From Brevinematia bacterium (GTDB taxonomy: Bacteria > Spirochaetota > Brevinematia > DTOW01): a stretch of 59,354 nucleotides of DNA. The first letter of the stretch is position 1, and the number at the start of each line of letters is the position of its first letter. The stretch spans positions 1 through 59,354 of the forward strand of contig JBCNVF010000093.1 of NCBI GenBank assembly GCA_039630355.1, written 5' to 3'. The notes under the pieces were generated by a model that saw nothing but the letters and a program-made list of their open reading frames with translations, did no database searches and was not told the origin of the DNA. A program made the translations under genes and the position numbers. Below are positions 14,353-58,080 of this stretch, piece by piece.

Positions 14353-14693
14353 CAATAGATTCCAACTTCCGTTAGACAAGTGAGCAGAATTCTAGACTTT
14401 TCTCACTTACCCTTTGGTTTTCCGTCAGTCACACTTCACTTTGTATCAGCCTCTTAGATGCTTACTATTTTTCTAGATAGCGTTCATCAATCACGAGTTT
14501 CATTTCACACTAAGCCTTTAAGTAGACAAGCCTAGAGGATAACGTTTTCCCCATTTAGGAATGTTGAGAAAGATACAAAAACTCATCAAGGAGGATTTCT
14601 GCGAAGAGAGTAGTTTTAGTCTACCCAACAAAGGTAAATGTGAGTCTGAGAGAAAATATTTTAGAATGTATTGAAATTCCGAAACTCTTATTG
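14353..14693. repeat. Composite copy of the interspersed repeat family
   Basis: The left end CAATAGATTCCAACTTCCG matches the family terminus. The next ~55 bases (GTTAGACAAGTGAGCAG, CTCACTTACC) follow the family order. TTCTAGATAGCG plus CATCAATCACGAG and TTTCA near 14475-14510 match the middle of the copy at 52855. The right edge AAACTCTTATTG (ending 14693) resembles a terminus. At 341 bases it is longer than the ~216-base full copy and seems to contain an extra or nested segment. The rest of the 14301-14747 gap holds only promoters. Confidence 0.6.
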
Positions 14694-17641: not shown

Positions 17642-17803
17642 CAATAAATTTCAATTTCTGCTAGATGAGTAAGCAGGATTCTAAACTTCTGTTTACTTAC
17701 TCCCTTCGGTTCCGGATGGTGTTCGTCAGTTATAAAACTTAACTTCACGCCAAGGTTCTTAGATACTTGCTAAGAGATAAGCTTTAGCAAGATTTTGAAT
17801 CTC
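17642..17803. repeat. Repeat-family copy, single conserved end
   Basis: It begins CAATAAATTTCAATTTCTG and continues GATGAGTAAGCAGG, CTGTTTACTTACTCCCTTC, GGTTCCGGATGG. This parallels the minus strand of the copy at 52855-53070 (GTTTACTTACACTC, GGTTCTAGATAG). The family match fades after about 17765. No matching second terminus or target duplication is seen. It separates DUF2225 from the BatA-like gene. Confidence 0.65.
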
Positions 17804-46825: not shown

Positions 46826-47010
46826 AGTGGATTTCAAGATTTAACGATTGAATACAGTCTTTCTTTTATTTCTCTCACACTTCTTGCTGGGGCTAGATGA
46901 ACATTCTCAATAAACACTTGAAACCTGATGTAAAGTAGCATTGTAGAAGTTAAATTTTTAGTTTTAAAACATTTTGCTTCTAGACTGTTCTTGACTGTAG
47001 GTAATTTTGT
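46826..47010. repeat. Diverged repeat-family copy
   Basis: TTCTCAATAAACACTTG (near 46897-46913) and the flanking TTTTATTTCTCTCAC, GGGGCTAGATGAAC match the core of the 52855 and 54394 copies in order. The left end GATTTCAAGATTTAACG is a degenerate terminus; the right end is unclear. It fills the gap between dut and the Spy-like gene. Confidence 0.55.
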
Positions 47011-52282: not shown

Positions 52283-52801
52283 TTAGTATCTGTATATACC
52301 TATTTTGTTCTTCTTAGCTTTGCTTTCTGCCTGTCTTATTCTCCAGGCGTATTTACCCTTTACCATATATGGTCTTGCTAACCCGTTAGCAACCATATAC
52401 TCGTTTATGAGTACGTCATCCAGCCATAACCATCCTAAATTTCTTTTGTATCTATCAACCCCCTCTATCTCAACTTTAACAACTTTGTTGTATACTAAAC
52501 TATGCAGTTTCCACTTTGCTGTTTCTCCTATTCTTAACAATTCACTGGGGGGAACCCTAATAAAAACATTGAACTCACCGTTAATGTAAACTTTAGTTGT
52601 ATCCTTCTTGAACTTTGCATTTCTTCTCGTTTCAGGAGTGTCTATACTCAAAAGTCTGACCTTGTAATACCCATCATTTGCTTTAACTGTAACGGTGTCA
52701 CCGTCATCAACATCTACGACTTTACCAGTTATGGTGACTCCAGATAGTGCACAAGAAATGAAGATAAAAATAGCTACTAATATCCAAACTAACTTTCTCA
52801 T
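52283..52801 (-). CDS. Exported staphylococcal-nuclease-like (thermonuclease) protein
   Basis: 172 residues with a signal peptide (about 1-20; ISC could be a weak lipobox, so surface anchoring is possible). The SNase fold has the catalytic residues in order: VDVDDGDTVTV (Ca-binding Asp), VRLLSIDTPETRR (Arg, Asp, Glu) and the second Arg in DRYKRNLGWLW near 122. It ends NKIGIYRY, as usual. It would cut nucleic acid outside the cytoplasm. The ATG lies 6 bases below its -10 box. It is convergent with rodA (3 bases apart). Confidence 0.85.
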   Translation of the reverse strand: MRKLVWILVAIFIFISCALSGVTITGKVVDVDDGDTVTVKANDGYYKVRLLSIDTPETRRNAKFKKDTTKVYINGEFNVFIRVPPSELLRIGETAKWKLHSLVYNKVVKVEIEGVDRYKRNLGWLWLDDVLINEYMVANGLARPYMVKGKYAWRIRQAESKAKKNKIGIYRY

Positions 52802-52807
52802 AACCGT

Positions 52808-52837
52808 ATTTTAACTACTACTGCGGATGCTTTACAA
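52808..52837 (-). promoter_or_regulatory. Promoter of the nuclease gene (leaderless)
   Basis: Minus strand TTGTAA (52832-52837), 18-base spacer, TAAAAT (52808-52813), 6 bases to the ATG at 52801. Confidence 0.55.
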
Positions 52838-52845
52838 ATTTAGAT

Positions 52846-53079
52846 ACCGGTTCCCAACAAATTCCAAAATTTGTAACTAGGATGTAGTTTTTCTTTTACT
52901 ATTCTCGCAGTCCCTGACGGGACTGGGTAAATACTCTTTCAATAAACACTTAGGAGAGTTGGCATAGGGTGAAATTCTGTGATTGATGGACTACTATCTA
53001 GAACCAAAGAGTGTAAGTAAACAAAAGGTTGAACCTTATCTACTTGCCTGGCGGAAATTGGAATTTATTGACCGGTTCC
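52846..53079. mobile_element. MITE-like element with 9-bp target-site duplication
   Basis: The element spans 52855-53070 (216 bases). Its ends are inverted: CAACAAATTCC on the left and GGAATTTATTG on the right (reverse complement CAATAAATTCC). It is flanked by perfect direct repeats ACCGGTTCC at 52846-52854 and 53071-53079. It encodes no protein. Inside lies the hairpin CAGTCCC-TGAC-GGGACTG (52908-52925). This is the best-preserved copy of the family and sits between the nuclease and coaBC genes. Confidence 0.85.
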
Positions 53080-53135: not shown

Positions 53136-54341
53136 CTAGCTAGACTGTGTTTCTATATTTTTGGAAATGTACTCTATGATTGATCTTGCGACTTTGAGCT
53201 TGCTTCCCTCAAATTCTACTCTACTACCATCTTTACTGAAGATGGTTACTTTGTTTGTCCTACTTCCCATTGGGTTGAAAGTTATTTTGCCATCTTTCAA
53301 TTCCAATTGATTTGCTACTACGAAGTCAAGCTTTTTTTCCCTCATTTTTGCAATAGCGTATTCTTCGGCTTTATTGCTTGTTAATGCAAATCCTATTACT
53401 ATTTGATGTCTTTTTTTCTTCTTTGAGATTTCCTTTAGTATATCTGGGGTTTTTTCTAACTTTATTTCTAGTAATTGGTCCTTTGAAAGTTTTCCTGAGA
53501 ATTTCTTACTAGGTTTGAAGTCTGATACTGCAGCAGGCATAAGAAGAATGTCGGAGTTTATAAATTCCTTTTCCACCTGCTCCAGCATATCATGAGTGGA
53601 GACAACTTTGATAGATTTTATGAATTTAGGAGGAGTATATTTCATCTCGCCATATATTAAGCAAACATCTGCTCCCTCTAAATAGGAGACTAGAGCCAAT
53701 GATAGCCCCATAAGGCCCGATGAGTCGTTAGATATAAATCTTACATTATCAATGTATTCCTTTGTAGCTCCAGCAGTTACTATTACTTTCTTATCTTTTA
53801 AAATACCGTTGTTTTTTCTTAGTATAGAGTATACTATTGTCTTCTCGTTTGGTAGTCTTCCTTTCCCTTTGCCTTCTAGAGGTGAAGCAAAGAGTCCTTC
53901 CTCAGGTTCTACAATGTCCCAGTTGTATTCTTTAAGTTTTGTTATGTTTTTCTGGTTTATAGGATTTATCCACATTTCTTTATTCATTGCGGGAACTATC
54001 ATTCTCTTTTTGGAGTAAGGAAAAGCTAATGCGATAGTGCTGACTAGATCATCGGCTATACCATTTGCAATTTTGCCTATGATATTGGCAGTAGCAGGCA
54101 CAACTACAAAGACATCTCCCCATTTTGCTAAAGTTATATGGATTAAAGGATCGTCATTGTTGAAATTGTCAACATATACCTTGTTTTGGGATATAGTTTG
54201 AAAAAGCAATGGAGAGATGAGTTTTGTAGCATTGTGACTCATAACTACTTTGACTTCATTACCTCTTTTTATAAGCCCCCTTATCACATTCAGCACTTTG
54301 TATATGCTTACGCTACTTGTGACACCTATGACTATCCTCAT
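53136..54341 (-). CDS. coaBC: Bifunctional CoaBC: phosphopantothenoylcysteine synthetase/decarboxylase
   Basis: Two steps of coenzyme A synthesis. 401 residues. The N-terminal flavoprotein decarboxylase (CoaC, about 1-180) has IGVTSSVSIYKVLNVIRGL, the PASANxxGK-type VVPATANIIGKIANGIADD and PAMNKEMW. The C-terminal synthetase (CoaB, about 185-395) has KVIVTAGATKEYID, the ISNDSSGLMG loop and LMPAAVSDFKP, with KTPDILKEI. A TTAAAT lies 7 bases before the ATG, again suggesting a leaderless start, but its -35 is weak. Confidence 0.93.
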   Translation of the reverse strand: MRIVIGVTSSVSIYKVLNVIRGLIKRGNEVKVVMSHNATKLISPLLFQTISQNKVYVDNFNNDDPLIHITLAKWGDVFVVVPATANIIGKIANGIADDLVSTIALAFPYSKKRMIVPAMNKEMWINPINQKNITKLKEYNWDIVEPEEGLFASPLEGKGKGRLPNEKTIVYSILRKNNGILKDKKVIVTAGATKEYIDNVRFISNDSSGLMGLSLALVSYLEGADVCLIYGEMKYTPPKFIKSIKVVSTHDMLEQVEKEFINSDILLMPAAVSDFKPSKKFSGKLSKDQLLEIKLEKTPDILKEISKKKKRHQIVIGFALTSNKAEEYAIAKMREKKLDFVVANQLELKDGKITFNPMGSRTNKVTIFSKDGSRVEFEGSKLKVARSIIEYISKNIETQSS

Positions 54342-54393: not shown

Positions 54394-54608
54394 CAATAAG
54401 TTCCAAAATCTGCGCCTAGGATGTAACCTTTCTTTTTACTGTTCTCGTGGTCTCTGTTGGAGCTAAGTGAACACCCTTCTTGATAAGTACCCGAGAGACT
54501 TGGTATAAGGTGAAGTTCTGTGATTGATAGACGCTGTCCAGAACCAAATAATGTAGGTGGACAAAGGTTAAACTCATCTACTCACCTGATGGAAATTGTA
54601 ATTTGTTG
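54394..54608. repeat. Full-length repeat-family copy (215 bases)
   Basis: It starts CAATAAGTTCCAAAATCTG and ends GGAAATTGTAATTTGTTG, in the same orientation as the element at 52855. The two align over their whole length (GGATGTAACCTTTC; GGTGAAGTTCTGTGATTGAT; CCAGAACCAAATAATGTAGG). The central hairpin is degraded, and flanking 9-mers TTTTATCTT/TTTAGTTGC do not match, so it looks older. Confidence 0.8.
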
Positions 54609-58013: not shown

Positions 58014-58080
58014 CAATAAGTTCCAATTTCCGTTGGGTGAATAAACAAGATTTTATGTTTTGTTTATTTGAGTGGTTTTT
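58014..58080. repeat. Truncated repeat-family copy between acpP and fliW
   Basis: CAATAAGTTCCAATTTCCG is a near-perfect terminus, followed by GTGAATAAACAAG and TTTGTTTATTTGAGTGG, as in the first ~60 bases of other copies. There is no second end. It separates the divergent acpP and fliW promoters. Confidence 0.7.

Follow-up and report, generated by a model that had tools for sequence, protein, structure and literature searches.

We analyzed a 59,354-bp stretch of a Brevinematia genome (hereafter, the window), which is ∼89% coding. Its thiG gene is most similar to that of a MAG (81%), followed by a Spirochaetes MAG (77%) and, at 54%, a Brevinematales MAG, so that the host is probably a spirochaete related to the Brevinematales. 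The feature of interest, here called the query, is a 216-bp element lying, like the other elements of its kind, in an intergenic gap (Table 1). Its ends are inverted, and a perfect 9-bp direct repeat brackets it: on the left, ACCGGTTCC runs directly into CAACAAATTCC..., and on the right, ...GGAATTTATTG runs directly into ACCGGTTCC. The earlier note on this DNA had described the element in these terms, and the sequence reads exactly so. It had also mentioned a similar full-length copy 1.3 kb away, which we found to be 215 bp long and 74% identical to the query, and related pieces in most of the large gaps. A family profile located 14 pieces in the window, occupying 12 of the 17 noncoding gaps of at least 150 bp, in agreement with that description.

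The left side of the query faces a predicted promoter that reads away from the element into the gene of a putative nuclease-like protein, and outward promoter matches of varying strength also adjoin other copies in the window. For the coaBC-like gene beside the second full-length copy, the promoters of congeners were too weak to decide whether a promoter had been present before the element.

Table 1. Query element, neighboring genes and promoter boxes, and other family copies in the window
Position	Strand	Feature	Basis or remark
14353..14466	-	Another copy, 3' part	Outward promoter score 17.4 at the fixed distance; then a 325-aa ORF
17642..17777	-	Another copy, 3' part	Outward promoter score 13.3 at the fixed distance
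46826..46942	+	Another copy, 5' part	Outward promoter TTGAAA-18-TAACAT on the left at the fixed distance
52283..52801	-	172-aa ORF, putative nuclease-like protein	Labeled from reading its sequence; gene of the targeted promoter
52808..52813	-	Predicted -10 box TAAAAT	18-bp spacer; 6 nt before the ATG
52832..52837	-	Predicted -35 box TTGTAA	Starts at the 18th base out from the left end of the query; reads away
52846..52854	+	Left copy of the 9-bp target-site duplication, ACCGGTTCC	Sequence and flank statistics
52855..53070	+	Nonautonomous MITE-like element, 216 bp, best family copy	Sequence and family profile
52855..52872	+	Left terminal inverted repeat, CAACAAATTCCAAAATTT	Family consensus and comparison with IS end
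53053..53070	-	Right terminal inverted repeat, CAATAAATTCCAATTTCC on the minus strand	13 bp in common with IS end
53071..53079	+	Right copy of the 9-bp target-site duplication, ACCGGTTCC	Sequence and flank statistics
53136..54341	-	coaBC-like gene	Faced by the left side of the copy at 54394..54608
54394..54608	+	Second full-length copy	Left side towards the coaBC-like gene; weak promoter match at the fixed distance
58014..58068	-	Another copy, 3' end	Outward promoter score 15.7 at the fixed distance

Element family and target-site duplications

This genome (1.75 Mb) gave at least 156 matches to a sequence-only search model built from 31 copies, and a congener (G002) gave at least 53; with the same model, no matches were found in the congeners G001 and G003 or in 17 more distant relatives. 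The copies are short (about 170 to 235 bp), noncoding, and numerous, as is characteristic of MITEs. Terminal inverted repeats CAATAAATTCCAA occur at both ends, a further MITE trait, with 150 genome-wide matches compared to 4 for a reversed control. Pairwise identity among copies had a median of 0.71 and reached 0.925 in the best pair. Substitutions among copies were strongly skewed towards transitions (977 to 223) and roughly even in both directions.

The flanks of 78 near-full-length copies showed a strong excess of flush 9-bp direct repeats relative to re-paired flanks (z = 7.4), and 12 of these copies had repeats matching at 7 or more of the 9 positions, compared to 0.25 expected. The repeat is a perfect 9 bp in two copies (the query and L147), and L050 has a perfect 10-bp repeat. 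A smaller excess was also present at 10 bp, and there was none at 7 or 11 bp in the same comparison. In G002, the duplication was not detectable on 14 old full-length copies. The excess of 9-bp repeats is what insertion through a 9-bp staggered cut leaves behind, and a duplication of fixed length (9 bp, in some copies 10) is likewise expected of MITEs; it has disappeared from older copies, in which the element sequences are decayed as well.

These results support the identification of the family as a nonautonomous DNA transposon (MITE) that makes 9-bp duplications. The earlier note had proposed this for the query and had named an absence of further copies as evidence against it, but many are present; both the genome-wide search and the comparison of flanking 9-mers extended its proposal to the whole family. 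The note was incomplete in one respect, as it had missed the fixed placement of the elements upstream of promoters, described below.

Neighboring copies are frequently arranged back to back or in tandem, within ∼10 to 20 bp of one another (L085 and L089 in G002; L006, L017, and L021 in this genome, G000), which suggests that insertion recurred at one promoter or went into the ends of existing elements.

Predicted promoters at a fixed distance

Base composition in the flanks revealed TTCAA at positions -22 to -18 and TTGAA at +18 to +22, with TATAAT-like signals ∼23 bp farther out. Read outward from either end, this is a sigma70-type promoter pointing away from the element. We counted promoters per flank as a TTGACA/TATAAT pair with at least 9 of 12 matches and a spacer of 16 to 18 bp; the promoters in all counts are sequence predictions. 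Counting spacer variants separately gives slightly higher numbers. Among 217 flanks, the -35 box started at 17, 18, 19, and 20 bp from the element end in 9, 54, 19, and 7 cases, respectively. The background at positions 25 to 100 bp had a mean of 0.88 and a maximum of 4, and the inward and reversed controls gave 0.77 and 0.87. A fitted matrix scored a promoter at this place in 56% of the flanks facing an outward gene versus 8% of those facing a convergent gene; these flanks had themselves served to fit the matrix, which leaves the consensus count as the figure without bias. The pattern was replicated in G002, where the -35 box lay at 18 bp in 8 and at 19 bp in 3 of 43 flanks, and in all, the fixed distance to predicted promoters was observed in four genomes.

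Promoters were found beside both element ends (36 left and 49 right). Of the 76 full-length copies with both flanks, 21 had no promoter over the threshold on either side and 10 had promoters on both sides, which we attribute to what may be decay and recombination between copies. Two-sided promoters were confined to copies without a duplication; recombination between copies joins unrelated flanks and would thus explain them. Among the 18 duplication-bearing copies, 12 had exactly one promoter at the fixed place and none had two. Where the promoter was clear, the -35 box lay at 18 bp in all 8 copies with a 9-bp duplication and at 19 bp in all 3 with a 10-bp duplication (L050, L004, and L137). 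The distance to the -35 box thus shifts with the length of the duplication, which means that 8 bp always separate the duplicated target from the -35 box and that the promoter sets the nearer cut.

We examined orthologues of the nuclease-like gene in two congeners. Neither has an element; at the same promoter position, G003 has TTGAAA-18-TACAAT-ATG and G002 has ATGTAT-18-TATCAT-ATG, in both cases 6 to 7 nt before the ATG, as beside the query copy. This supports the interpretation that the predicted promoter at the query site pre-dates the element. The earlier note had looked to related genomes for empty sites with a single ACCGGTTCC, and this expectation was borne out in part: both congeners lack the element before this gene, but a single ACCGGTTCC is not recognizable there because the intergenic DNA has diverged too far.

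Of 87 genes downstream of such promoters, 27 start 6 to 8 nt after the -10 hexamer, and the spacer is 18 bp in 67. Judged from these predicted distances, the short spacing between -10 box and start suggests that leaderless transcripts may be frequent in this lineage.

A candidate autonomous partner

Exact matches to the end sequence outside the MITE copies revealed another class of elements that terminate in the same way. On contig C117 of this genome, a 528-bp element contains a 165-aa ORF, an internally deleted transposase gene that had no meaningful family match of its own. A search with the C-terminal part of this relic identified an uninterrupted transposase ORF of 376 aa in G003, with the end TAATAAATTCCAAAATTTGAGAG; this ORF is the only intact one in the genus, and its start lies 2 bp from a contig end. 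G002 has a truncated copy that is 98% identical to the G003 ORF over 230 aa. The compared assemblies are mostly fragmented, and the copies in both G002 and G003 run into contig ends. Three G002 contig ends share the same transposase stretch, as expected for a multicopy IS.

Over 18 bp, the MITE consensus CAATAAATTCCAAAATTT does not differ from the right end of a transposase-derived relic, and it matches the end of the intact G003 IS at 17 of 18 positions; such ends in common with an autonomous IS are also expected of a MITE. The interiors of MITE and IS are unrelated, and the ends alone are in common. The -35 box of a predicted promoter lay at 16 to 19 bp in the flanks of the G003 IS, the G002 copy, and the relics on C117, C37, C63, C49, and C30. 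The earlier note had reasoned that an autonomous partner must exist elsewhere or be extinct; this assembly contains only internally deleted relics with the same ends as the MITE, whereas the intact ORF is found in G003 and several truncated copies lie at contig ends in G002. We regard the IS with the 376-aa ORF, a putative DDE transposase, as the likely autonomous partner of the MITE.

Several other remains were seen. The relic L192, on C117, and L187, at the end of C63, have a common far flank (GTAGTAAATC) and different other sides, as if recombination between copies had joined the flanks or the contigs overlapped. A 126-bp element made of both IS ends (L222, G000:C49:212-337; L223, G000:C46:51-176) lies upstream of a tRNA-like sequence, with the -35 box at 16 bp; the region differs slightly between C49 and C46, perhaps through strain variation or duplication. 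Clusters of nested IS ends with transposase fragments containing stop codons (L321 on G002:C28; L319 and L322 on G003:C2 and C6) are remains of the same IS in the congeners.

The 376-aa transposase matched PF01609 (DDE_Tnp_1) with an E value of 4e-4 and 20.6 bits, below the cut-off of 23, and PF13808 (a DDE_Tnp_1-associated N-terminal domain) with an E value of 0.004 and 17.7 bits, below the cut-off of 32.3. By inspection, the C/D(2)H signature that Mutator transposases have 11 to 19 aa after the second catalytic D does not follow DGLYYARTFIRKTRKKVLIKSKE, and no Mutator-type profile was among the Pfam and NCBIfam matches at E values up to 10. PF00872 was absent from four congeners, in which no match to DDE_Tnp_1 or Transposase_mut exceeded the family cut-off. 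Searches for IS4-type (PF01609) and IS256-type (PF00872) transposases gave a single match, below the threshold, and this was the candidate partner transposase itself. No solved structure matched the transposase, and searches of viral contigs, plasmids, phages, and a named genome collection did not find it.

The transposase family was present in 4 of 393 genomes of the phylum. In G029, from another family, a 429-aa homologue is 34% identical to the 376-aa transposase and matched no Pfam or NCBIfam model. Its IS is complete (1,656 bp), has ends CAATAATTTCTCAAA, and is bracketed by a perfect duplication of 9 bp, CATTTTACT; a gene on one side is preceded by TTGATT-17-TATATT, whose -35 box lies at exactly 18 bp. 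IDG and RWxIE motifs are conserved between two homologues that are 27% identical overall, with catalytic residues assigned by inspection. We take the transposase to be a putative DDE enzyme of a small, so far unclassified IS family.

Targeting model, alternatives, and known systems

We consider it highly probable that the query is a MITE moved by an unclassified DDE-type IS that inserts upstream of sigma70-type promoters, always at one fixed distance. The MITE would be, or would have been, moved in trans by a DDE transposase recognizing CAATAAATTCC ends, which the IS family found here probably supplies. Insertion would proceed through a staggered cut of 9 bp, sometimes 10 bp, leaving 8 bp between the -35 box and the nearer edge of the duplicated target; given this gap and an ordinary spacer, the cut would fall at about -44 to -52. 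That region is contacted by the C-terminal domains of RNA polymerase alpha. The element may be directed there by RNA polymerase already at the promoter or by a protein of that complex, in line with the proposal in PMC3942029, drawn from Ty3, that TnGBS makes contact with the promoter complex.

A compact genome that retained only those random insertions sparing its promoters would also show elements confined to intergenic gaps, as in this densely coding window. Such survivorship would allow any distance beyond the promoter, however, and the observed peak is 1 to 2 bp wide (54 flanks at 18 bp versus ∼0.9 per position from 25 to 100 bp), which leaves this explanation very improbable. It is quite improbable that the promoters arose after insertion, with the AT-rich element end serving as an UP element or activator site and the fixed distance favored later. 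The low median identity marks the elements as old, and fixed-distance promoters on both sides occur in 10 old copies and no young ones, as this would predict; yet 12 of the 18 young, duplication-bearing copies already have a single promoter at the fixed place, the distance moves by 1 bp with the duplication length, element-free orthologues in two congeners have the same promoter, and the single complete IS in the distant genome G029 shows the promoter together with a perfect duplication.

If the repeats were structured or cis-acting RNAs kept for their function, with the direct repeat incidental, one might expect the query to fold better than shuffled sequences, as it does (z of about -3.2), and transitions, which keep wobble pairs, to predominate among the substitutions, as they do. 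RNAalifold nevertheless gave no consensus pairs, covariation was 0.188 compared to 0.183 in shuffles (64 of 500 as high), no Rfam match fell at the element, and the duplication statistics demand transposition; with no covarying base pairs beyond the shuffles, we rejected a structured RNA family, and the RNA explanation is almost certainly wrong. It is also unlikely that a different, unseen transposase moves the MITE and that the IS ends are alike by coincidence. The unrelated interiors and the lack of an assembled intact transposase of this kind in the genome would agree with such an enzyme; the 18-bp identical ends, the same target rule and distance within one genus, the G029 homologue with its 9-bp duplication, and the lack of above-cut-off DDE_Tnp_1 or Transposase_mut matches in four congeners argue for the IS described here.

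According to Guerillot et al. 2014 (PMC3942029), the Mutator-type TnGBS/ISLre2 (p-MULT 3) and ISKra4 (p-MULT 4) groups insert 15 to 17 bp upstream of -35 boxes. The family here has this Mutator trait of a fixed short distance (18 or 19 bp) and resembles TnGBS/ISLre2 in inserting upstream of sigmaA -35 boxes (∼15 to 17 bp in theirs), in its DDE transposase, in direct repeats of 8 to 9 bp, and in a terminal C. Their transposases, according to the same paper, have a Mutator catalytic domain with C/D(2)H after the second D, whereas the transposase here has none and matches no such model, and most of theirs insert in one orientation, whereas both ends adjoin promoters here. The ISKra4 group is similar in its promoter targeting and in having promoters on either side of the element and differs in its transposase superfamily; a small MITE family of such size is not described for it in the consulted sections of that paper. 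The element acts like the Mutator groups but is not assigned to them because the tested signature and profiles were absent.

IS4/ISAs1-type families (PF01609, PF13808) are similar through the weak profile matches and the RWxIE motif; the 376-aa transposase falls below both curated cut-offs and its G029 homologue outside all Pfam and NCBIfam models, and none of the papers found attributes promoter targeting to these families. MITEAba12 of Acinetobacter (PMC6382973) is likewise small and nonautonomous, makes 9-bp duplications, and matches its IS by the ends only; however, it is reported to have outward promoters inside the element and to prefer AT-rich DNA, whereas the promoters here lie outside, in the target. 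The yeast retrotransposons Ty1 and Ty3 (PMC5911963) integrate beside promoters of a defined RNA polymerase, an analogy of strategy only, as they are eukaryotic retrotransposons. A search among open-license papers found no other promoter-targeting families.

Insertion directed to promoters has been described for two Mutator-type lineages, as an unusual kind of specificity. The family found here shares their geometry, yet its transposase does not match that superfamily; this suggests that transposons land recurrently on the upstream face of the promoter complex, and the family offers a second system for finding the contact with that complex. We think it fairly probable that a bacterial IS family outside the Mutator superfamily independently came to target RNA polymerase bound at promoters, at its upstream edge, and that its MITEs thereby spread to lie at many promoters of a small-genome spirochaete. 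Such placement would explain how a dense genome bears more than 150 insertions with little gene damage, and the element ends would mark promoter positions genome-wide in an uncultured lineage.
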